Source: Candidatus Poribacteria bacterium (GTDB taxonomy: Bacteria; Poribacteria; DTPJ01; WJIO01). Taken from it: a DNA stretch of 35,915 bases. The stretch is taken from assembly GCA_014730235.1 (NCBI GenBank), contig WJIO01000381.1:1-35915 (forward strand). Direction: 5' to 3'. The notes under the pieces are model-generated. The model was not told the DNA's origin and did no database searches. It saw only the letters and a program-made list of their open reading frames with translations. Both the position numbers and the translations under genes were made by a program. This document shows, piece after piece, positions 16,277-28,139 of this stretch. Position 1 is the first letter of the stretch, and every line of letters starts with the position of its first letter.

Positions 16277-18124
16277 TCACATGCACTTCAGTACTATCCC
16301 CCATTTACCTATTACCCAACCTGTGTCACGATTGATAAAGTTTAACCCGGTCAACTCATTTTCCACAAGGCCTTTTTGCTGTTTCCACGTTTTCCCGCCG
16401 TTTGATGTATGCAGAATAGTTCCAAAGCCGCCTACCGTCCATCCATTGTCTTTATCGGCAAAGTATACCTCAGCAAGGCTGTTTTTGGTTCCGCTTTCCT
16501 GAACCGTCCACGTTTTCCCGCCATCGGATGTATAAAGAATAGTTCCGGCAACACCCACAGCCCAGCCTGTGTTCTTATCAACAAAGTATACATCATTTAG
16601 CAGGTTCATTGTACCACTATTTTGCCTGTTCCATGTCTCTCCGCCGTCGGATGTGTACAGAATTGAACCGATCATGCCTACAGCCCAACCGTTTTTAGGA
16701 TCAGTAAAGAACACCTGGGAGAGGTAGTCCCATGTATCAGTATTCTGTTTCCACCACGAAAGACCGCCGTCGCTGGTGTGAAGGACAATGCCGTTCATAC
16801 CCACAACCCAACCTTCGTCCCGGTCGATGAAATGGACACCTAACAGCACATCGTCTGTACCGCTGTTTTGCAGTTTCCAGGTTTTTCCACTGTCAGATGT
16901 GTGTAAAATTGCACCTCCTGTGCCTACAGTCCAGCCAAGTTTCGGTGTTGGGAAGTAAACCCTTGAAAGACATTCGTTTGTGCCGCTGTTTATGGACTTC
17001 CACGCTTGACCACCGTCGGTTGTATGCAATATCATACCCCGGTCGCCCACGATCCAGCCCTCCTTGTCGTTCACAAAAAACACACCGGACTGTAGTTCGC
17101 TGCTGCTGGATTGGGGAGACCACGTTTTACCGCCATCGCTTGTTGCTATAATAGTACCGTGTTCACCTACAGCCCAGCCAATGCTGGTATTGGCAAAGTC
17201 CACACCCAAAAGGACGTTGCTGGTTCCGCTGGTCTGGGTGTTCCATGTAGTGCCACCGTCGCTGGTATGGAATATCTGACCGTTCCAGCCCACAAGCCAT
17301 CCATATTTTTCATCCACAAAATCCAGGTCATAAAGTCCAAAATCACATTCCGTCTTATCCCTATTGATGCTGTAATTACCCAGAAGAGGACCGTTTGCCT
17401 GGGGAATCCATGTCTTTCCTGCGTCGTCTGTATGGACTATAAGATTACCTTCTCCCACAGCCCATCCCTTTTGACTACCGAGAAAATCCACTGAGCGTAT
17501 TTCACAGCCTTCCACATTTACCAACTGAGCATGAACTTCAGCTCTTGCATCCTGCCTGTTCCAGGTTTCGCCGCCGTCACTGGTATAAAGCATCAAGCCA
17601 TCCAGACCGCTGACCCAACCTTGTCTTTCATCAGAGAAATATACGGACAGATAAACACTGTTTTTGTCTTTCAACTGTGTCTTCCAAGTCTTACCACCGT
17701 CAAGAGTTTTCAGCAAAATATTATTTCCCGATGTAAACCCCATCATATTATCCAGAAAATACAGGTTATAAAGGGAATTTTCCGTATTACTTTCCTGTGG
17801 TTTCCAGTTATTTCCCCCATCATCGGTATGTATTATTATACCATTATCACCGGCGATCCATCCGTATTTATCATCAACAAAATATACAGTTCTTAGAAAT
17901 GTATCCGTGCCACTTTCACTTTTATGCCAGGACATACCTCCATCTTCTGTATATACAATCATACCTTCATCGCCCACAGCCCATACAACATTATCGCTCA
18001 GGGCAAAAACATCATGAAAATGAGTACTCCATGATGCCTCCCGAACTACGCTCCAATCGCTGTATGAGATAGATGAGAATAAAAACAGTATAATTATTGA
18101 ATAATTTATAAATTTTATATACAT
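16277..18124 (-). CDS. Exported YCF48-repeat (BNR-like) beta-propeller protein
   Basis: A 615-residue protein with a signal peptide (about 1-22, ending SISYS-DW) followed by tandem repeats of about 40 residues with the pattern GWAVG..GTILHTSDGGKTW..Q.SGT...L..V.F.D. I count 13 full repeats plus a C-terminal half repeat (GWVIGKWGIVLKC) whose missing part can be supplied by the N-terminal segment, giving 14 blades, that is two closed seven-bladed propellers. Ycf48 helps photosystem II assembly in phototrophs, but in heterotrophs the repeat is a general extracellular or periplasmic scaffold or binding fold; no enzymatic motif is visible. Blades 4 and 5 carry insertions of about 10-14 residues. 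The Shine-Dalgarno is weak. Confidence 0.9.
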   Translation of the reverse strand: MYIKFINYSIIILFLFSSISYSDWSVVREASWSTHFHDVFALSDNVVWAVGDEGMIVYTEDGGMSWHKSESGTDTFLRTVYFVDDKYGWIAGDNGIIIHTDDGGNNWKPQESNTENSLYNLYFLDNMMGFTSGNNILLKTLDGGKTWKTQLKDKNSVYLSVYFSDERQGWVSGLDGLMLYTSDGGETWNRQDARAEVHAQLVNVEGCEIRSVDFLGSQKGWAVGEGNLIVHTDDAGKTWIPQANGPLLGNYSINRDKTECDFGLYDLDFVDEKYGWLVGWNGQIFHTSDGGTTWNTQTSGTSNVLLGVDFANTSIGWAVGEHGTIIATSDGGKTWSPQSSSSELQSGVFFVNDKEGWIVGDRGMILHTTDGGQAWKSINSGTNECLSRVYFPTPKLGWTVGTGGAILHTSDSGKTWKLQNSGTDDVLLGVHFIDRDEGWVVGMNGIVLHTSDGGLSWWKQNTDTWDYLSQVFFTDPKNGWAVGMIGSILYTSDGGETWNRQNSGTMNLLNDVYFVDKNTGWAVGVAGTILYTSDGGKTWTVQESGTKNSLAEVYFADKDNGWTVGGFGTILHTSNGGKTWKQQKGLVENELTGLNFINRDTGWVIGKWGIVLKCM

Positions 18125-18671: not shown

Positions 18672-20024
18672 TTAATCAGGAAGCTGACTGCGTATTTCCA
18701 ATCGCTTCTGAGACGTTTTTACTTCTTTCAGCAAATCAAGATGAGCTTCATGCAACTTCTTTGCTATGGCCTTATTCCCTGCATATAGATTTTTTTGTTC
18801 TTTTGGATCTTCCTTGATATTGTAGAGTTCTGCTGGATGCTTTGCCCCCCGGTAGTGCAGAGTCCATTCTCCATCAGTGATACTGCTGCAAACACCTCTA
18901 TCAGGATTATCATTCAGGGCTGCCGATGTCACGGCTACAGGCCTTTCTCCTATGGATTTCCCCTTCATAGCAGGCAAAAGGGATTGGCTTTTTATGCCTT
19001 CAGGTATAGATGCTTCGCCCAATTCTAGGGCTGTGGTCATTACATCCACAGGCTGCATGAGGAAATCGCATCTTCCAGACATGCCATCAGGTGTATAGAG
19101 GAAGAACGGTATATGGGCCACTTCCTGGTAAAATGGCCAGGGGCCGTCGGTTCCGCTTCCGCTTTTGCCTATCCTGCCGTGATCGCCGATGTAGTGACCA
19201 TGATCCGCCATAAACATAATAGCTGTGTTGTTATAAAGTCCTAACGCTTCAATCTTATTCAACAACCGACCAACCCAGGTGTCAACAAGGGTTACTTCAC
19301 CGGCGTATAATGCCCTGGTGTGCCTTATTTCGTCGTCTGTAAGGTAATCGCAGTAGTTATATACAGGGTGGTCTATGACTTCGCCGGTATATCCAGGGTC
19401 ATACATATCAACATAATGCTGCGGTGGGTCCCAGGGTTCATGGGGATCGAAGGTGTCTATATATAAAAAGAATTTTTCGTGGGTATAGTTGCGTTCCAGC
19501 CAATCGCAGGCCCTCTGCATGGTACGGGCTACAAAAGTGTCCCGCTCGGTCTTCCAATTGACGGTTCGGTGTTTGTAATGGTTGTCCCTCATTCTCTCCG
19601 GCCCCCGGATTTTTTCCGGCGCGCAGGGGAGATCGACTTTGACGTTATCAGTTATTGATCTGTCGCCTTCCTGCCCCCGAATCCAGTCCCAGGCCGTAAA
19701 TCCCCGGTCAAAGCGATGTCCGTCCCGGACAAGGTGAGGAGTGTCGCAGATTAACATGCTGACATAGCCCATTTTGCCCAGTTCTTCCGAGAGGATAGTC
19801 TCTTTTTCGGGCAGAGGAGTCCAACCTCGAAATGGGAATGTATATTTTCCGGTAAACATGTCAGTCCTGGTAGGTATAGTAGGGAATGAAGCCTGATATG
19901 CGTTGTCAAAAACCATGCACTTTCTGGCAAAGGTGTCCAGGTTTGGTGTTCTAATCCAGTTATTGCCGTAGCAACCCAGGTGATCAAAGCGTAAGGTATC
20001 GGACATTATGATAATAATATTCAT
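18672..20024 (-). CDS. Sulfatase-fold hydrolase with Thr at the formylglycine position
   Basis: A 450-residue alkaline-phosphatase-superfamily protein. Metal-site motifs of sulfatases are present: 'MSDTLRFDHLGCYG' (7-20), 'DPHEPW' (193-198), 'ADHGHYIGDHG' (273-283) with Lys at 287. The catalytic signature C/S-x-P-x-R..TG appears here as T-I-P-T-R (49-53) followed four residues later by TG (58-59); codon ACT encodes Thr49. Without Cys or Ser it cannot be converted to formylglycine, so classical sulfate-ester hydrolysis is doubtful; Thr is the nucleophile in other superfamily members such as phosphodiesterases and phosphopentomutases. No signal peptide, hence cytoplasmic. Its ATG overlaps the GNAT stop (ATGA), with GGAG 8 nt upstream, so translation is coupled. 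Confidence 0.88.
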   Translation of the reverse strand: MNIIIIMSDTLRFDHLGCYGNNWIRTPNLDTFARKCMVFDNAYQASFPTIPTRTDMFTGKYTFPFRGWTPLPEKETILSEELGKMGYVSMLICDTPHLVRDGHRFDRGFTAWDWIRGQEGDRSITDNVKVDLPCAPEKIRGPERMRDNHYKHRTVNWKTERDTFVARTMQRACDWLERNYTHEKFFLYIDTFDPHEPWDPPQHYVDMYDPGYTGEVIDHPVYNYCDYLTDDEIRHTRALYAGEVTLVDTWVGRLLNKIEALGLYNNTAIMFMADHGHYIGDHGRIGKSGSGTDGPWPFYQEVAHIPFFLYTPDGMSGRCDFLMQPVDVMTTALELGEASIPEGIKSQSLLPAMKGKSIGERPVAVTSAALNDNPDRGVCSSITDGEWTLHYRGAKHPAELYNIKEDPKEQKNLYAGNKAIAKKLHEAHLDLLKEVKTSQKRLEIRSQLPD

Positions 20025-20788
20025 GTGATTTCTCCAATATTTGTTAAATGATTAATTTCCCTGGTCATTTCCACATAGGCAGGATCATCCTTCATAGGCC
20101 CAATAGTACGGGTACATCTAACAAAGCAATATATTATATTCCGCATCTCTTCTACTGAAAGATTCCGTTTGTTGCACCATTCCATACAATAAGGTAAAAG
20201 ATGCAGGGAAAGGTAATCAACAGGTGGCTCTCCTTCCCTGATGGATGGCTGAATGAAATTAAAATCCAGCTTTCGGTAACCCAGCTTTTTCCAGAGTTTT
20301 TCCCTCTTCCAGGGGTTCATGGTATCGTGTTTGATTTGCTGTGGAGACATTAAACCCGGATCGCTAACCTGAATTACCAGACCTTTAATATTTGAATTGA
20401 ATTTTTTAGCGTCGTTTTTCAGGATATTATCCCGAATTGATATAAGTTCAGAGCCTATGCCATTGCCCTGGAACTCTCTCTTTGTGGCCAGATATGATCC
20501 CATTCCTATACCGGTGTTTGCATTATAAAATTTATGTGAAAATCTGAAAAAGTAGAATGACACTCCGCCAACCACACAATCATTTTCAACTGCCAGAACC
20601 ATGTGGTATCGGCATATTTCGCCTTCGTCCTCCCAGCTTCCCTTCGATATATTGTAGCGTAGTATGTCCAAATCTTCCCGCTCAAAAGGGTCGGGAAAGG
20701 CTTCTTTCAGTATGTTATGAAACTGCTTTATCTTATCGCTTTTTGGATTATTTATCTCTATATACTTCATGATTTTATTCAAGATCAT
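20021..20788 (-). CDS. GNAT-family N-acetyltransferase
   Basis: A 255-residue protein with the acetyl-CoA-binding motif A 'REFQGNGIGSELI' (104-116; the family Q/RxxGxG/A pattern) after beta strands at about 64-82. The C-terminal ~100 residues extend past the acetyltransferase core and are unique. Substrate unknown. The ATG at 20788 overlaps the end of the preceding gene by 14 bp; a second in-frame ATG at 20770 would begin closer to the domain (KYIEIN..), and neither has a strong Shine-Dalgarno. It forms a coupled pair with the sulfatase-fold gene (4-bp overlap), which suggests that the two act in one process. Confidence 0.82.
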   Translation of the reverse strand: MILNKIMKYIEINNPKSDKIKQFHNILKEAFPDPFEREDLDILRYNISKGSWEDEGEICRYHMVLAVENDCVVGGVSFYFFRFSHKFYNANTGIGMGSYLATKREFQGNGIGSELISIRDNILKNDAKKFNSNIKGLVIQVSDPGLMSPQQIKHDTMNPWKREKLWKKLGYRKLDFNFIQPSIREGEPPVDYLSLHLLPYCMEWCNKRNLSVEEMRNIIYCFVRCTRTIGPMKDDPAYVEMTREINHLTNIGEIT

Positions 20789-21860
20789 ACTTCTGCTTTA
20801 AAATTTCAAAACGTCTGTTTCTTTCCTCAGCAATCTTCTGCCGATGCACCATGAGTTTTCCCTCTGTGATTACATTTTCCAGAACATGTTCCCCGATTTC
20901 ATCAACCACTGGAGAAGCGGGGATTATTGAGAACATATCCCGGAAGGTATCGTCAGAGAAAAGGCTGTCTATATCGGACAATATATAATCAAGGCTGCCC
21001 AGATACAAGGAGGAAATAAATAAGGCCCGGTAAGGGTCATTGCCGGTTTTTATAAATACTGGAACAAGCAGATTTTCCCCGTGCCCGGTGTTAAAATAAA
21101 TTTCATCTACTTTCCGTATGTATACATCACCATAAAAGTCAAAGTTAATAATATAAAATTCAGCTTCGTTTATTATACTTTTCAGCAAATCATCCGCAGC
21201 AGAAGTCAGACAATATCCATCTTCATTGTCAATCAAGCTCTGGGATATAAGGTCATCTATTATGGCATCCTCTTTTAATTCCGGCAGTTTACCAAACTTG
21301 TCCATTACATACAACAAGAAAATCTGCCTGAATTCCTTCAACATTATATCCTTCTGCTGCTGGCTAAGTAGATAAAAAGGATCCATCTTATCAGGAATTT
21401 CAATGACAAGATCAAGCAGATAATATGATCCAGCTTTAGAAAATTGAAGCTGTTGATGACGGGATATAGGGTCATCAGGAGAAATACGAGCTTGACCGTT
21501 ATTTATATAATAAGTCGCGTCCAGCTTCCCAGCCCTAATGAGAGTCAGAAGCTTAATCAGATTTTCGTATACCTCCAGTAGATCCGGGTTACCAATGTCT
21601 ATAAGTCTCTGTTTAACCTTGCGCTGATCTTTTTTATCATGACAAAGGAAATACCTTTCCAAAACTTCCCATACAGATAAATCTGAAGCTGAATCCGGCA
21701 AATCCATGTAAAAGCTATCTAACAAATCCATATTCCCAAGGGTTATACGCAGTATCAGCGGTATTCCTTCAAAATCTTCAGGAACTGGAGGAAATCCAAT
21801 AGCTCTATAAAATTTTTCTTCAAAAGAACCTGGTTCTATTGTTTTTTGATAAGATTCCAA
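20775..21860 (-). CDS. Protein of unknown function, cytoplasmic, in the SecA-linked cluster
   Basis: 361 residues, not recognised. It is acidic and mixed alpha/beta, with no signal peptide, membrane helix or cysteine cluster. A short segment at about 198-232 (DLISQSLIDNEDGYCLTS) resembles a winged-helix hairpin, but this is weak. The C-terminal 30 residues are a charged helix. The start is TTG at 21860, inside the 3' end of the lipoprotein gene (25-bp overlap), and the stop lies inside the GNAT gene (14-bp overlap), so its translation depends on its neighbours. No ATG occurs before residue 43, so if TTG is wrong the N-terminus is shorter. The overlaps argue that it is real and functionally tied to the lipoprotein and SecA. 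Confidence 0.75.
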   Translation of the reverse strand: MESYQKTIEPGSFEEKFYRAIGFPPVPEDFEGIPLILRITLGNMDLLDSFYMDLPDSASDLSVWEVLERYFLCHDKKDQRKVKQRLIDIGNPDLLEVYENLIKLLTLIRAGKLDATYYINNGQARISPDDPISRHQQLQFSKAGSYYLLDLVIEIPDKMDPFYLLSQQQKDIMLKEFRQIFLLYVMDKFGKLPELKEDAIIDDLISQSLIDNEDGYCLTSAADDLLKSIINEAEFYIINFDFYGDVYIRKVDEIYFNTGHGENLLVPVFIKTGNDPYRALFISSLYLGSLDYILSDIDSLFSDDTFRDMFSIIPASPVVDEIGEHVLENVITEGKLMVHRQKIAEERNRRFEILKQKYDLE

Positions 21861-22729
21861 TCTGATATAAATCCTATACCTGCGCCAGCAATTCCACCCC
21901 GAAAACCTCTACTGGAAGAACGGGATGATCTACTACCCCATCTGGATCTGGAACTACTGCTTTTTCTTGTAAATGTGCCTTTGGATCTTGCTGTTGCCTT
22001 TTTTAGATTAACCCCGGATCGGGTTGCCCATCTCTGTCTATTAGAACTGGGACTGGCTTTTTTATAACTGGTTCCATGTTTTGTAGACATCCTGGTCTGA
22101 TATCTTCTGTTGGTATCAATTTGCCGCCTGTAACTTGGAGTTTTGCGGTAGCTGTCCCGGTAATTCCTTATTACCGTTGCATCCCGAACGGTGGTATGAT
22201 ATACAGGGGCCATATATCGAGGTCGTGAAAGGGCATCAAATATTAACCATGTGGTCAATAGATTCATACCTGAGTATGAGTTGCGGTAATATGAATTTAC
22301 ACCATAACCCTGCATTTCGTATCGAGGTCTTTCACCCTCATACCATCTGCGGAATGTAAACAGCTTATCATCGCTGTTCTGATCAATCTCCAGATTGTTG
22401 TTGAGGTCAGCAAAGCCTGAAACCAGCTGCTCTTTTCCCTGGTTTCTGACCTCTATGAGAACCATCTCCTCACCCTGATAAATTTCATTTACGCGTTTTT
22501 CAAATTCGGACACGTTCTCCGATTTTTTCATGGCCTCTTCTACGGCTTCCAGGTTTATCTGTCCCGCTTTACCACTGGTTTCTGCCCACTGTTCCCGTCT
22601 GCTAGCACATGCACCTAAAGCCAATATACTTCCGCCGGCAATTACACCCGAAGCGGCAATGCTTCCGTATTTAAGCATTAACCCCTTTCGGTCTGGTTTG
22701 TATATATCCGGCTTAGAAAACTTTTCCAT
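21836..22729 (-). CDS. Putative lipoprotein with calcium-loop-like motif and Ser/Arg-rich tail
   Basis: 297 residues. A hydrophobic segment (about 24-40) ends in the lipobox LGAC (Cys41), so export and lipidation are likely; the basic N-region is unusually long (about 20 residues). Residues 108-116 (DLNNNLEID) resemble a calcium-binding EF-hand or dockerin-type loop. From about 185 to 280 the protein is rich in Ser, Arg and Lys, with alternating S/R at 256-274, then a Gly-rich end. The tail is reminiscent of YgiB/UPF0441-like lipoproteins, but I cannot confirm homology. A perfect AGGAGGT precedes the ATG, and the gene is 19 bp after the divergent secA, so it is a natural candidate for that translocase's substrate or partner. 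Confidence 0.8.
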   Translation of the reverse strand: MEKFSKPDIYKPDRKGLMLKYGSIAASGVIAGGSILALGACASRREQWAETSGKAGQINLEAVEEAMKKSENVSEFEKRVNEIYQGEEMVLIEVRNQGKEQLVSGFADLNNNLEIDQNSDDKLFTFRRWYEGERPRYEMQGYGVNSYYRNSYSGMNLLTTWLIFDALSRPRYMAPVYHTTVRDATVIRNYRDSYRKTPSYRRQIDTNRRYQTRMSTKHGTSYKKASPSSNRQRWATRSGVNLKKATARSKGTFTRKSSSSRSRWGSRSSRSSSRGFRGGIAGAGIGFISDWNLIKKQ

Positions 22730-22748
22730 TTTCTATACCTCCTGTGTA

Positions 22749-25430
22749 TTAAACTGATAACAAATTTTTCACATCATCAATTAATTCTCTATCCATCTTA
22801 TTACTAATCCTAACCCCCGGCAGGGGATAGGTGAAAATATCTTTCAAAGTTTCACGTCTAATGGAATTAATTAAATCTTCAAATATCTCTGCCGATTCCA
22901 ACCTGTATTTAGCAATGGTTTTGCCTCTCTCATCATGTCTCAGCATGAAAGATTTCTGTAGTTCGCCCTGGTATGATAGATAATCGGTCCAGGCTTCCTC
23001 TATGGTTTTTACTAATACAGCTTGAATAATCCTTGAACAGAAATCCTTACCGAAAATTTCTAACCGTTCCCAGTAAGTTTTTTCAAAAGCATTGCAGATA
23101 TTTTCTTTTGCTTCATCAGGTTCTGCATTTATATTAATATCAGGAATCTTTACGCCAAAATTATTAAAACAGTATTCCCGCAGATAATTCAAATCAAACT
23201 TTGTATCCACAAGATAAGAGACATATTCATCTATTATTATAGAACGCAATTCCTTAATTGTCCATTTACCTTTAATGGCTTCCTGCTTCAATTCGTGTAT
23301 TACTTCCCTCTGTTTATGGGTAACATTGTCGTATTCTAATAGATATTTTCTCGTTTCATAACCTGATTCTTCAGATTTGTACTGTGCCTGGAGAGTTAGT
23401 TTTTCCATAAGTTTGAAATTTGATTCATCCAGGGCTTTTGCCATTCTGGAAAATTCTTCCTGCCCGAAGATTCGGAACAGATCGTCTTCCAGGGATAAAT
23501 AAAATCGGGATGATCCGGGATCACCCTGTCGGCCGGCTCTGCCTATTAGCTGTTTATCAATACGCCTTGCCCTATGTCTCTCTGTTCCTATTACATGCAG
23601 ACCCAGCCGGGAATCACCTAAAATAATGTCAGTACCTCTTCCGGCCATGTTGGTAGCGATAGTTACGGCATAAGGTCTGCCAGCATCTTTGATAATCTCA
23701 GCCTCTTTAAAATGGTTTTTGGCATTCAATAGGTTATGGGGAATATCCATTTCAGACAGCATTTCGCTTAGCCTTTGGGATTTTTCTACTGATCTTGCAC
23801 CAATTAATACAGGTCTGCCAATTTTGTGATGCTCTATAACGTCATTTACTATGGCTTCCAATTTTTCTATTTCTGTTCTGTAGAATTTATCCGGTAAATC
23901 CACCCTTATTAATGGTTTGTTAGGAGGAATTCTTACAATATCCAGCTTATAAAGTCTTTTGAATTCCTGGGCTTCTGTATAGGCTGTGGCCGTCATTCCT
24001 GTCATATTTTCATATAAACGGAAATAGTTTGGCTGGGTAATCCTTCCTATAACACGATTTTCTTCGGTTATTTCGAGGTTTTCCTTACATTCTATAGCCT
24101 GGTGAAGACCTTCTTCGTATTTCTTACCAAAAGCAAGACGACCTGTATATTCATCCACGATTATAACATTTCCATTCTGAACAATATAATCTTCGTCTTT
24201 TTTATGCAGTATACAAGCCCTGAGCAACAGCAGGAGATTCCTTAAAGATAGGCTGTTCTCAAGAATTGCTTTATCCAGAATCTGCTCAACCTCATCATAT
24301 CCCTGGTCTGTCAGTTTGATAGTACGTTGGTTTTCATCCACCACATAAAACAGTCCGCGTTCCAGCTTATACTCAGACCTGGCTGAACGGAATTTACTCA
24401 GGATATTTTTCCTCTTTTCAGACAGATAACTATCTTTGCTTAATTCTTCCAGCAAAAGGTTATTCAATGGGTCAGCCTTTGATACCTGTATCATTTTCAC
24501 AGCTTTTAGATAATCATCTTTTTCATCTTTTGCTTCCACAAGTAATTTATGGACAATTTCCTGCTGTTTATTCAGAATATATTCGACAGCAGGCTTAAGT
24601 CTCCAGAAGGAATGAAAATCCTGGTATAAGCTGTCCGATTCATATTCTGATGAACCGGAAATTATCATAGGTGTTGTGGCCTCGTCCATTAAAATACTGT
24701 CTATCTCATCAATAATTACGTACTGTAGTTTATCCTGAACTTTCTTTTCAGGATCAGCTTTAACTTGATCCCGCAGGTAATCAAATCCTAACTCGTAGTT
24801 GCTGGCGTATACAATGTCACACAAGTAGGCTTCCCTGCGTTCTGTATCATCCATAAACTGAAGCACACAGCCCACGCTTAACCCCAGAAAACGGTAAACC
24901 GGGGCCATCCATTCATAATCCCGCAGAGCCAGGTAGTCGTTTACAGTGGCAATATGCACTTTTTTGCCAGATAAGGCCCACATACTGGTGGGAAATACAG
25001 CCGCCAGGGTTTTACCTTCTCCGGTTCCCATCTCAGCTATATTACCGTTATACATGGCCAATGCGCCTATTAGCTGCACGTCAAAGGGCCAGAACGTTAA
25101 ATCATCTTGAGATTTTCTCATTTCCTGAACCATCTGATAAAAATCCCCATCCAGATAAATATCCCAATCGTCAACAGATTTCCGAAGTTCTTCCACCTGC
25201 TCAGCCGATTTGCTAATCACAGAAGATTTTGAACACCAATCTTCCAGTAAATCGCTGTCAAAAAGCTTCCACATACCGATCCGTCTGCCGACTACCTCTC
25301 TAATGATGGCAAAGGTTCTGGTTACATCCCATGGATCTACTTGGCTTAACAACTCAACATCATCAAGATGTTTAAGCTCGAAAGATTTGATCTTATTAAT
25401 CAGTTTTCTATAACGCTTTATTGTAAACAT
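22749..25430 (-). CDS. secA: Divergent SecA (accessory SecA-like preprotein translocase ATPase)
   Basis: An 893-residue SecA with Walker A MGTGEGKT (134-141; about 30 residues later than in E. coli SecA), DEID (241-244), 'NMAGRGTDI' (594-602) and 'GRAGRQGDPGSS' (630-641). SecA drives preproteins through SecYEG from the cytoplasmic side. Differences from housekeeping SecA: a longer N-terminus; an insertion of about 70 charged residues in the preprotein-binding region (about 265-350); a two-helix-finger region (WTDYLSYQGELQKSF) that loses the usual HLxxMDxLRxGI pattern; DEATTP in place of DEARTP; and no C-terminal zinc-binding CxCGSGKK motif. These make an accessory or lineage-specific SecA likely, though it could be the only one. 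It overlaps the methyltransferase gene by 13 bp. Confidence 0.9.
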   Translation of the reverse strand: MFTIKRYRKLINKIKSFELKHLDDVELLSQVDPWDVTRTFAIIREVVGRRIGMWKLFDSDLLEDWCSKSSVISKSAEQVEELRKSVDDWDIYLDGDFYQMVQEMRKSQDDLTFWPFDVQLIGALAMYNGNIAEMGTGEGKTLAAVFPTSMWALSGKKVHIATVNDYLALRDYEWMAPVYRFLGLSVGCVLQFMDDTERREAYLCDIVYASNYELGFDYLRDQVKADPEKKVQDKLQYVIIDEIDSILMDEATTPMIISGSSEYESDSLYQDFHSFWRLKPAVEYILNKQQEIVHKLLVEAKDEKDDYLKAVKMIQVSKADPLNNLLLEELSKDSYLSEKRKNILSKFRSARSEYKLERGLFYVVDENQRTIKLTDQGYDEVEQILDKAILENSLSLRNLLLLLRACILHKKDEDYIVQNGNVIIVDEYTGRLAFGKKYEEGLHQAIECKENLEITEENRVIGRITQPNYFRLYENMTGMTATAYTEAQEFKRLYKLDIVRIPPNKPLIRVDLPDKFYRTEIEKLEAIVNDVIEHHKIGRPVLIGARSVEKSQRLSEMLSEMDIPHNLLNAKNHFKEAEIIKDAGRPYAVTIATNMAGRGTDIILGDSRLGLHVIGTERHRARRIDKQLIGRAGRQGDPGSSRFYLSLEDDLFRIFGQEEFSRMAKALDESNFKLMEKLTLQAQYKSEESGYETRKYLLEYDNVTHKQREVIHELKQEAIKGKWTIKELRSIIIDEYVSYLVDTKFDLNYLREYCFNNFGVKIPDININAEPDEAKENICNAFEKTYWERLEIFGKDFCSRIIQAVLVKTIEEAWTDYLSYQGELQKSFMLRHDERGKTIAKYRLESAEIFEDLINSIRRETLKDIFTYPLPGVRISNKMDRELIDDVKNLLSV

Positions 25431-26719
25431 AACAGGGCAATGGTTTCCAGATGATATGTCATGGGAAACATATCTATTAAAGCCAGTTTTGAAAGCTTAT
25501 AATAATTTTGAGTCAGTTTATTAATATCTCTAGATAAAGTTGTTGGATTGCAAGAAATATATATTATTCTACGGGGTTTTGCTTCTATCAAAGCTTTTAA
25601 ATCCCTCTTGCTGCAACCTTTCCGGGGTGGATCGAGAATTACCAAATCAATTTTATGTCCATTTAAGTCTTTTTGAAGTATGTATTCAGCAGTACCTTGA
25701 CGGAAACGGGTATTTTTAATACCGTTCATATCGGCGTTTATACTTGCCAAACAAACAGCTTCTCGAGATATATCCGTTCCCCAGATCGTTTTCCCTCTAT
25801 CAGCCAATTGCAGAGCAAAAGTGCCTACTCCGGAATGAGCGTCGAGAATTATTTTGTTACTATATCCGGCCATTTCCTTTACAACCCGGATCATCTGTTT
25901 CAAGCCATTTTTATTTACCTGGAAAAAACTCCTGGGGCCTATATAATAATCCAGACCGTTTACTGATTCAATAAGATTTGTATCACCATAAGCATGTATA
26001 ACCTGAGAATCAACTCTGTAATAAACAGATGAAACTTCCTGCAAACGGCTGAGTTCAGCAACATGATCATCCAGATTTTCTACCCCGTAATTGCAAAGAA
26101 GCATCAGTTTATTTGAGACACTGGAATTCCTGATACTGATCTCATTCAAAGAACCAATGCGGGATAATACCTCACCCCGGAATAACGGTGAAAGGGAATT
26201 TATTTTTTCTGAACTAACAAGGCATTTATTGATAGGAACAACATGATGGGTTCCCAGGGTTTTCAAGCCAAACTTCCTGCTGCTGTTGGCTGAAAATACC
26301 CGCAGCTTATTCCTGTAACCTGTGGGCGATTCCTGCGTATTTATTTTAATTTCAGGAATATTGTCCTGCTTACCTATACGATTCAACGCCTGTATCAGTA
26401 TCTCTCGCTTCCAGTATACCTGATGCTTATATTCGATCTGCTGCCACTGGCATCCACCACATCCCTCGGTAAAATGGACGCATGGAGGATTACATCGAAT
26501 GGGTGAAGCTTCCACTATATCAGCTATTTCGGCAACTGCGTAGTTTTTCTTTACATCTTCTATCCTGACAAGAACTTTATCACCGGGTACACCTCCGCTG
26601 ACAAATACCACAAAACCATCTAAACGACCTACCGCCTGATCCGAATAATTGAGGGATTCCAACTCCAGAGATACCAGATCACCTGCTGCCGGTTTTTTCC
26701 CTTTAACTCCCATACTCAA
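25418..26719 (-). CDS. rlmD: RlmD/RumA-like 23S rRNA uracil-C5 methyltransferase
   Basis: 433 residues. A TRAM RNA-binding domain (about 11-70) precedes the [4Fe-4S] cysteines C80, C87, C90 and one near 163 (KCLVSS), then an AdoMet-binding Rossmann fold with 'DAHSGVGTFALQLA' and 'ILDPPRKGC'. The catalytic Cys390 is in 'ISCNPTTLSRD'. It methylates a uridine in RNA via AdoMet; RlmD (U1939) or the dual RlmCD type cannot be separated by eye. The start is TTG at 26719, 5 nt after AGAGGT; an ATG two codons later is the alternative. It overlaps the kinase by 17 bp and secA by 13 bp. Confidence 0.9.
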   Translation of the reverse strand: MSMGVKGKKPAAGDLVSLELESLNYSDQAVGRLDGFVVFVSGGVPGDKVLVRIEDVKKNYAVAEIADIVEASPIRCNPPCVHFTEGCGGCQWQQIEYKHQVYWKREILIQALNRIGKQDNIPEIKINTQESPTGYRNKLRVFSANSSRKFGLKTLGTHHVVPINKCLVSSEKINSLSPLFRGEVLSRIGSLNEISIRNSSVSNKLMLLCNYGVENLDDHVAELSRLQEVSSVYYRVDSQVIHAYGDTNLIESVNGLDYYIGPRSFFQVNKNGLKQMIRVVKEMAGYSNKIILDAHSGVGTFALQLADRGKTIWGTDISREAVCLASINADMNGIKNTRFRQGTAEYILQKDLNGHKIDLVILDPPRKGCSKRDLKALIEAKPRRIIYISCNPTTLSRDINKLTQNYYKLSKLALIDMFPMTYHLETIALLCLQ

Positions 26720-28139
26720 TTAGTACCTCTGGATAAAATTCCTCCATACATGCATCAATGCGCCTGTATAAGCTGTATGACTTGTTATAAACTGTTACAA
26801 TATCTGGATCAGGCTTAATAATATGAGATATTTCCACCCATTTCTCCGCCCCTTTTTCCAGGCTATCTACAAAACCAGTTCCTACAGCCGTTATAATAGC
26901 CGCTCCCAGGGCTGTGGTTTCTTTCACTCTTGGTACATGCATATCCTTATTTAACACACTGGAGATTATTTTACACCACAACAGGCTTTTTGCCCCACCA
27001 CCTGCGGCTGTTATGGATCCTATACGATCAATGCCGTATTCTTCAATTATATGCCGGATAAGATAGGCGTTTCCCTCTAACACACTCCTGGTTATATGAT
27101 CCGAAGTGTGAGCTAAAGTCAGACCAAAAATAACACCTTTTGCATATGGGTTATGCTTCGGACCCCGTTCACCCATAAGATGAGGTATGAATATAATACC
27201 ATCAGAGGCAGGATTGATTTTTGAAGCTGCCTTATCTATATCAGAAAATGCTCTGCTGTCATTGCAAGTCTTTTTGCACCAGTTCAGGCTTGCTCCCCAT
27301 GTGGCTGTAGAACCTATCCAATCCCTTGATCCAGATTCAGGACATGTTACAATCCATGCGGCTGTGCCCATATACAGGCATGTCCGACCGGGGGTATACA
27401 TATTTATCCCGATAAATGTTCCCTGAACGTCTGAAGCACCAATAACTACCGGAGTTCCATCCCGCAGACCTGTTTCCCTGGATGCTTTCCCGGTAACAAA
27501 CCCGATAATATCAGCGGAATCCATTATGGGAAGCATTTTATCTTTGGAAATACCGATGAGATCCAGAACTTCATAAGACCATTGCTTTTTCTGGTCATCT
27601 AGTAAAGCTGTACCTCTGGCATCGGATATATCCGTTGCATATTCGCCGGTGAGTTTCATCCTGATGAAGTCCTTGCCGAACATGAATTTATATGTTTTGA
27701 CCAGTACATCCCGACGATTTTCCACAATCCATCTGAGCTTTGGAGCTGATACGGTGGTGCTGGGTTTGCGTCCTGTAATTCGTGATAATCGCCCTGCATG
27801 CTCCTGCAACCAGTCACACTGGGGCCTACAGCGCTGATCCATCCACAACATAACCCGATCCAGAGGTTTACCTTTTTCATCAACCGGCAGTAAAGCGTGC
27901 ATAAGCCCACACATACCAACGGCTGTTATAGAATTTGTATCTACTTCTTCCAGCACTTCTCTTATACACTCTACGGCCAGCTTCCACCAATCTCTGGCAT
28001 CGGCTTCAACCCAGTTGGGTTTTGGATGATATAAGGGTATAGATCTATGGGCCTGGCTGATTATCCTGCCGGATAGGTTAAACACAAAAACTTTACAGGC
28101 AGAAGTGCTTAAATCTATAACCAGAATATTATTTTCCAA
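26703..28139 (-). CDS. FGGY-family carbohydrate kinase, xylulokinase-like
   Basis: 478 residues with both FGGY actin-like domains. N-terminal 'VIDLSTSACKVFVF' binds phosphate, 'MDQRC' lies at about 100, the catalytic Asp237 is in GASDVQG, and the C-terminal 'SITAAGGGAKSLLW' with 'ETTALGAAIIT' binds ATP. It phosphorylates a sugar or polyol; closest in look to xylulokinases, but FGGY substrates are not predictable by eye. The start is TTG at 28139, 5 bp after the dehydrogenase stop, so the two are cotranscribed, suggesting oxidation of a polyol to a ketose followed by phosphorylation. Confidence 0.88.
   Translation of the reverse strand: MENNILVIDLSTSACKVFVFNLSGRIISQAHRSIPLYHPKPNWVEADARDWWKLAVECIREVLEEVDTNSITAVGMCGLMHALLPVDEKGKPLDRVMLWMDQRCRPQCDWLQEHAGRLSRITGRKPSTTVSAPKLRWIVENRRDVLVKTYKFMFGKDFIRMKLTGEYATDISDARGTALLDDQKKQWSYEVLDLIGISKDKMLPIMDSADIIGFVTGKASRETGLRDGTPVVIGASDVQGTFIGINMYTPGRTCLYMGTAAWIVTCPESGSRDWIGSTATWGASLNWCKKTCNDSRAFSDIDKAASKINPASDGIIFIPHLMGERGPKHNPYAKGVIFGLTLAHTSDHITRSVLEGNAYLIRHIIEEYGIDRIGSITAAGGGAKSLLWCKIISSVLNKDMHVPRVKETTALGAAIITAVGTGFVDSLEKGAEKWVEISHIIKPDPDIVTVYNKSYSLYRRIDACMEEFYPEVLIEYGS

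Follow-up and report, generated by a model that had tools for sequence, protein, structure and literature searches.

A divergent second SecA beside an unannotated lipoprotein gene pair on a contig of Candidatus Poribacteria

Second copies of SecA have been described in several settings. In the SecA2-SecY2 systems, the second SecA is found near a low-complexity exported protein, a serine-rich repeat adhesin, and an acetyltransferase. The SecA2-only systems of Gram-positive bacteria (e.g., those of C. difficile and M. tuberculosis) pair a second SecA with one SecY, and SecA2 proteins are reported to be without the C-terminal tail (PMC7503281). For Gram-negative bacteria, another study describes mainly second SecAs that lack the wing/scaffold domain (SecA_SW), such as the secondary SecA_DEAD proteins of the Planctomycetes-Verrucomicrobia-Chlamydiae (PVC) group and others, which have HlyD/type I secretion-like genes nearby (PMC4452313). 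The window analyzed here is a stretch of 35,915 nucleotides (contig WJIO01000381.1 of assembly GCA_014730235.1, Candidatus Poribacteria bacterium), which corresponds to contig C326 of the draft genome G000 (5.53 Mb, 91.6% complete). It encodes a divergent SecA, for which, together with its kind, the name SecAx is used; further genes specify a lipoprotein, a protein of 361 aa, and an acetyltransferase of the GNAT family. A first-pass annotation of the sequence had taken these four genes for a possible accessory export system. The divergent second SecA is real, and a canonical copy is present in the same genome; a dedicated export system around it is not established, and the most fitting reading of the neighbors is that of an envelope pair separable from SecAx, not of a partner set for it. 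The locus thus probably represents two separable units in one co-directional run, namely an insert-bearing second SecA and a pair consisting of the envelope lipoprotein and the 361-aa protein.

The canonical SecA of G000 is broken into two halves, one at an end of contig C313 and one at an end of C418; a normal zinc tail closes the second half. Owing to this split, no intact SecA1 would turn up if genes were simply counted on the draft. With the canonical copy present, the possibility, raised in the first-pass annotation, that the SecA of the window is the only one in its genome falls away. SecAx was searched for with the protein as a query against 58 relatives, with all candidates scored, and with a profile against 386 genomes, where at most two candidate stretches were scored per genome and a weaker second SecA could therefore be missed. 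Full SecAx-like matches were obtained only in G000, G001, and G016 (3 of 84 Poribacteria and 3 of 386 genomes); the G001 protein is 54% identical to that of the window, and the G016 protein 45% identical over its best stretch. In a fourth genome, G058 (76% complete), pieces of a canonical SecA alone were found, and no SecAx. In the SecAx of G016 (L042:8275-10893), which is located behind several response-regulator genes, the second nucleotide-binding domain (NBD2) contains an additional insert, about 55 residues long, after MAGRGTDIKL.

When set beside the described systems, SecAx is SecA2-only-like at most. It resembles the SecA2s in being a second SecA that accompanies one SecY, and in being without the C-terminal tail, as is described for SecA2s (PMC7503281). 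On the other hand, it belongs to a different lineage and scores below the cut-off of every matched NCBIfam SecA model, including all four SecA2 models (TIGR03714, TIGR04397, TIGR04221, and NF012136). The likeness to the SecA2-SecY2 systems is that a second SecA has an acetyltransferase and an exported protein of low complexity in its vicinity; the would-be substrate, however, is a 297-aa lipoprotein, and there is no SecY2. One SecY each was found in G000, G001, G016, and G058 and no second SecY in any of them (drafts, 76-95% complete), which rules out an accessory Sec system by SecY2 for these drafts. Among the neighbors of SecAx, the only genes searched in this respect, no accessory secretory protein (Asp)-like, glycosyltransferase or serine-rich repeat substrate family was recognized, in agreement with the first-pass annotation, which had seen no homologs of the known accessory Sec genes. 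The secondary SecA_DEAD proteins of the PVC type are also second SecAs of Gram-negatives, but they are reported to be without SecA_SW and beside HlyD/type I secretion-like genes (PMC4452313); SecAx has a full SecA_SW and no such neighbors, and this type was ruled out on both grounds.

SecAx retains the complete SecA domain make-up, that is, SecA_DEAD, PP_bind, P-loop, and SecA_SW (matched over positions 5-198 of 200), and the Walker A and helicase motifs of the ATPase (GEGKT, TNMAGRG, and GR[AS]GRQGD) are present in 3 of 3 SecAx. An AlphaFold2 model of SecAx (45 selected rows) shows the full SecA fold, with a mean predicted local distance difference test score (pLDDT) of 82.1 and a predicted template modeling score (pTM) of 0.80, and its best PDB matches are all SecA, SecY-bound ones included. 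Departures from this pattern were counted against 56 other SecAs (13 canonical poribacterial, 25 insert-bearing, and 18 others). The zinc tail (C-P-C-G-S-G type) occurs in 49 of these 56 and in none of the three SecAx, which are also without the N-terminal FGSK-type motif. In the loop of the two-helix finger, the [DNE]P motif kept by 56/56 other SecAs is lost in 3/3 SecAx and replaced differently in each, although both finger helices (795-830 and 835-867) are kept in the model, with a short loop between them. The segment from the first nucleotide-binding domain (NBD1) to the preprotein domain comprises 111 residues in the window SecAx (range among SecAx 104-111); the 25 insert-bearing SecAs have 106-116 residues here, and 13/13 canonical poribacterial ones have 32-33. 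Hence the absent zinc tail, altered two-helix finger and enlarged preprotein-binding region of the first-pass annotation are all borne out, the last as an extra insert before the preprotein domain, which is modeled as four helices (274-349, pLDDT about 90-97).

The contrast in segment length is due in part to selection, since the 18 other SecAs were hand-picked among profile-search matches whose start lies beyond the insert, while the loci with the highest scores supplied the insert-bearing rows (27, minus L079 and L083, which yielded no open reading frame (ORF); L099 is cut by a contig end). A hidden Markov model (HMM) of the 25 insert-bearing segments alone provides an independent test. Against it, the SecAx inserts score 34.9 (window), 32.1, and 21.0 bits, and 0/200 shuffles of each insert reach its score (highest shuffle, 10.0 bits). 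Likewise, 24 of the 25 insert-bearing SecAs have 13 extra residues before PFDVQ, where extra sequence is also found in two of the three SecAx. As the insert is common to the insert-bearing type, the enlarged preprotein region is a mark of lineage; the finger tip is the truly odd feature of SecAx.

The best NCBIfam model of the insert-bearing SecAs is NF009536 in 4/4 tested. This type (PRK12901) is presumably Bacteroidota-like. SecAx scores 679 bits against NF009536, below its cut-off of 1493, as do the four tested insert-bearing SecAs (1121-1282). SecAx shares with this type the homologous insert before the preprotein domain and, in 2/3, the added sequence before PFDVQ, but differs from it as a second copy instead of the housekeeping SecA, without a zinc tail and with a changed finger tip. 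When the insert columns are left out of the tree, the three SecAx form one group (SH-like approximate likelihood ratio test (SH-aLRT) 99), apart from the canonical poribacterial SecAs (SH-aLRT 100), and the G016 branch is very long (3.08 changes per column). A tree without the G016 row, based on 49 of the 59 rows (the G016 SecAx and 9 insert-bearing rows being omitted), places SecAx on the insert-bearing side (SH-aLRT 92). While the tree alone does not decide, the inserts, because they are homologous, argue for a descent of SecAx from the insert-bearing SecA type, by transfer or old duplication. A literature search on a SecA insert in Bacteroidetes/Chlorobi and on two SecAs in Bacteroidetes returned nothing.

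The lipoprotein that follows SecAx in the window consists of a signal peptide with the lipobox LGAC, a conserved domain, and a Ser/Arg/Gly-rich tail. A D-x-N-x-N-type loop in it, read by eye, is possibly a calcium-binding site. The lipoprotein was found in 4/84 Poribacteria (G000, G001, G016, and G058), and the 361-aa protein in the same four of the 386 genomes, plus one weak match; the two genes are adjacent in 4/4. SecAx, however, adjoins the pair in only one of the three SecAx genomes, G000. In G001, only 42 bp separate SecAx from the end of its contig, C66, and the pair lies inside C64, with 7.6 kb of other genes upstream; in G016, SecAx and the pair are on different contigs. Only G000 and G001 have the GNAT gene adjoining the pair (52% identical between the two); the gene that follows the pair in G016 encodes a penicillin-binding protein (Transgly, Transpeptidase, BiPBP_C; L043:6771-9068). 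Sequence searches of the PDB gave no match for the 361 profile or the GNAT, and E 0.49 and worse for the lipoprotein. A mobile or viral origin of the pair was rejected, as it has no relatives in viral contigs or plasmids, and so was a defense system, as PADLOC and PHROG matches are weak only; one of these, to AbiEi (E 0.0064), covers residues 159-234 of the 361-aa protein and fits a winged helix.

More distant relatives of the pair were reached from both of its members. The lipoprotein profile retrieved a 272-aa lipoprotein in G272 (E 5e-5), and the 361 profile a 276-aa protein in G304 (E 1e-5) that is 45% identical to the gene directly upstream of the G272 lipoprotein, so that two independent searches converged on one pair. 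The G272 neighborhood contains TelA, DUF4178, DUF2617, the winged-helix protein, the lipoprotein, DUF350, spermidine synthase, and an ion channel. After further members had been added, profile comparison matches the window-type lipoprotein to these DUF350-operon lipoproteins (E 1.2e-11, 125 columns; probability 0.6% for an unrelated lipoprotein as a control) and residues 174-341 of the 361-aa protein to the winged-helix partner family (E 1e-11, 176 columns). At E 0.01, the winged-helix profile finds 14 of the 386 genomes, namely 11 strong, 2 weak, and the 361-aa protein of G016. A Ser/Arg-tailed lipoprotein stands beside the winged-helix gene or one gene away in 7 of the 11 strong loci; in G066 the two are on separate contigs, the lipoprotein gene standing next to DUF350 and DUF4178-like genes, and in G304, G303, and G162 none was seen near the winged-helix gene in the stretch examined. 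Six of the strong loci belong to Poribacteria (G007, G023, G029, G059, G066, and G067), all of which have the lipoprotein, adjacent or elsewhere, and SecAx was found in none of these six. The operons of G023 (L144:3961-9369) and G067 (L146:4068-9629) combine the winged-helix protein and the Ser/Arg-tailed lipoprotein with DUF4178, DUF350, DUF2617, and spermidine synthase; neither the winged-helix protein nor the lipoprotein of G023 reaches the cut-off of any Pfam family. A match of the lipoprotein in G346 (E 2e-17) was set aside as compositional, since no lipoprotein ORF was seen there and the match is, by eye, antisense to other ORFs.

Operons of this composition have been described as PspA/CesT-linked, with DUF350, DUF4178, spermine synthase, and the lipoprotein Ctha_1186 (PMC11237479), a name on which the literature searched yielded nothing further. 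The relatives of the pair in G272, G023, and G067 stand in just such DUF350/DUF4178/spermidine-synthase operons, and Ctha_1186 is likened to the window-type lipoprotein by its operon setting. In contrast, the pair in the window stands alone, and its 361-aa protein has an added N-terminal domain. No DUF350 gene was found on the contig of the window; a 292-aa DUF350 protein is encoded on another contig of this genome, C179 (3.5 kb), where the neighboring gene is DUF4178-like (E 9e-5, below cut-off), and DUF350 is also present in G001, G016, and G058.

The question of export turns on the signal peptides. In the four 361-type lipoproteins, the core has a mean Kyte-Doolittle hydrophobicity of 1.06-1.44 and 55-65% Gly/Ala/Ser, compared with 2.25-2.90 in five of six relatives (1.42 in the sixth) and 7-42% Gly/Ala/Ser. 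The lipoprotein of G058 has the same Gly/Ala/Ser-rich core though no SecAx was found there. A weakly hydrophobic, glycine-rich core of this kind fits, as a sequence feature, the twin-arginine translocation (Tat) pathway as well as accessory Sec. The lipoprotein may accordingly be a Tat substrate that is exported by neither SecA, with SecAx serving unrelated substrates, a rather doubtful explanation. A charged n-region precedes the Gly/Ala-rich core in 4/4 lipoproteins, and that of G016 contains N-R-R-L-I-L-K-Y, which, read by eye, resembles a Tat motif; twin arginines are nevertheless present in only one of the four, and the window has R-K.

In a true accessory export system, SecAx would be a SecA2 whose substrate is the Ser/Arg-rich lipoprotein; the 361-aa protein would serve as a chaperone, and the GNAT would be a modifying enzyme. 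Such a system is unlikely, even though SecAx and the lipoprotein-361-GNAT genes are adjacent in the window, the GNAT gene also accompanies the pair in G001, and the distinctive signal-peptide core recalls GspB, which is reported to be diverted from accessory to general Sec once the glycines of its core are replaced (PMC5578698). SecAx and the pair are apart in G001 and G016, G058 has the pair without a detected SecAx, related pairs occur in further genomes without one, and neither SecY2 nor a recognized accessory-Sec neighbor was found. All three SecAx genomes among the 84 Poribacteria do carry the 361-type pair, but in the tree of canonical poribacterial SecAs these genomes take a basal position, and shared ancestry can therefore explain the co-occurrence. 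Relatives without these neighbors, which the first-pass annotation had named as the counter-case to its proposal, are thus largely what is seen for adjacency, though not for co-occurrence. The position of the pair behind SecAx is peculiar to this genome, among those seen, and gives no evidence for a motor-substrate relation. A bolder version, that SecAx, an insert-bearing SecA with a re-engineered finger, is a Gram-negative SecA2-only route for glycine-rich signal-peptide cores, whose main client would be an envelope-stress lipoprotein with a signal peptide changed in step, is quite improbable; if true, it would connect an envelope-stress module with a second motor for export.

It is also conceivable, though not probable, that SecAx is no longer a translocation motor, and that a duplicated or acquired SecA has been repurposed as a remodeling ATPase or is slowly decaying. 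The loss of the finger-loop motif in 3/3, with a different replacement each time, the very long branches (such as that of G016), and the absent zinc tail and FGSK-type motif would all be in keeping with this. Against it stand the intact ATPase motifs in 3/3, the predicted whole fold including the finger helices, reading frames that remain intact over 2.6-2.8 kb in three genomes, and the 54% identity between two families.

Several observations weigh against reading the locus as two separable units with an envelope function for the pair. The presence of the 361-type pair in 3/3 SecAx genomes and the unusually glycine-rich signal peptides of its lipoproteins have been mentioned. The tree leaves the origin of SecAx undecided, as a clade of SecAx and canonical poribacterial SecA is not rejected by the approximately unbiased (AU) test (p 0.282). 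The winged-helix profile finds the 361-aa protein of G016 weakly (E 0.008) and misses that of the window itself. The N-terminal domain of the 361-aa protein has no known relative, and the AlphaFold2 model of this protein is poor (pLDDT 61.6); a fold search with this model gave nothing significant (best E 0.25), and for this reason the winged-helix part alone is claimed, from sequence profiles. Lastly, the envelope-stress role of the DUF350/DUF4178 operon family is itself a prediction from the literature (PMC11237479).

Under the favored reading of two separable units, SecAx would still be an ATP-driven motor, as its motifs and model suggest, and might, by analogy with SecA2-only systems, use the one housekeeping SecYEG to export a small set of substrates or to act in particular circumstances. 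The lipoprotein would be anchored in the envelope and sense or stabilize it, the cytoplasmic 361-aa protein could couple it to DUF350/DUF4178 proteins encoded elsewhere, and the GNAT may be an add-on to the pair. Second SecAs with a full domain make-up are hardly documented in Gram-negatives, and SecAx, having lost the finger-loop motif and kept the motor, offers a natural test of the role of the finger tip. The recurring association of an unannotated lipoprotein with an unannotated winged-helix protein across phyla attaches to a poorly understood polyamine/envelope-stress operon.

All four ORFs are on the minus strand, as the first-pass annotation had described (Table 1). The gene order is sugar kinase-like, RlmD, SecA, lipoprotein, 361-aa protein, GNAT, and sulfatase. 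Overlaps of 14-25 bp had been reported for the four genes, which is correct for lipoprotein/361 (25 bp) and 361/GNAT (14 bp); the SecA stop and the lipoprotein start, however, are separated by a gap of 19 bp, and the lipoprotein has its own good Shine-Dalgarno sequence. Since the flanking junctions overlap too (kinase/RlmD, 17 bp; RlmD/SecA, 13 bp; GNAT/sulfatase, 4 bp), overlaps do not mark out the four genes, and gene order and junctions indicate that the SecA-to-GNAT genes are a slice of a longer co-directional run.

Table 1. Genes and sequence features of the SecAx region, with positions in the window.
Feature	Position	Strand	Basis
Sugar kinase-like gene	26703-28139	-	Identity by eye
RlmD-like 23S rRNA methyltransferase, upstream neighbor	25418-26719	-	TIGR00479 above cut-off
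SecAx, second divergent SecA, 893 aa	22749-25430	-	Pfam SecA_DEAD/PP_bind/P-loop/SW
N-terminal extra stretch of SecAx (aa 53-113)	25092-25274	-	Alignment; pLDDT <50 over most
Helical insert between NBD1 and preprotein domain (aa ~262-353)	24372-24647	-	Insert-only HMM; model helices
Two-helix finger with changed tip (aa 795-867)	22830-23048	-	Motif count; helices 795-830 and 835-867 in model
Lipoprotein, 297 aa	21836-22729	-	Lipobox LGAC; conserved domain; Ser/Arg/Gly-rich tail
Lipoprotein signal peptide, low hydrophobicity, Gly/Ala/Ser-rich (aa 1-41)	22607-22729	-	Composition
D-x-N-x-N-type (D-x-N/D-x-N/D) loop, lipoprotein aa 108-116	22382-22408	-	D108 and D116 invariant in 10/10 rows
361-aa protein	20775-21860	-	N-terminal domain and winged-helix/C-terminal half
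GNAT acetyltransferase, 255 aa	20021-20788	-	PF00583
Sulfatase, downstream neighbor	18672-20024	-	PF00884

Promoter- and terminator-like matches in the region do not stand out from those in shuffles. Elsewhere in the window, at 16277-18124 on the minus strand, an exported protein of 615 aa is encoded that is built of Ycf48/BNR repeats.

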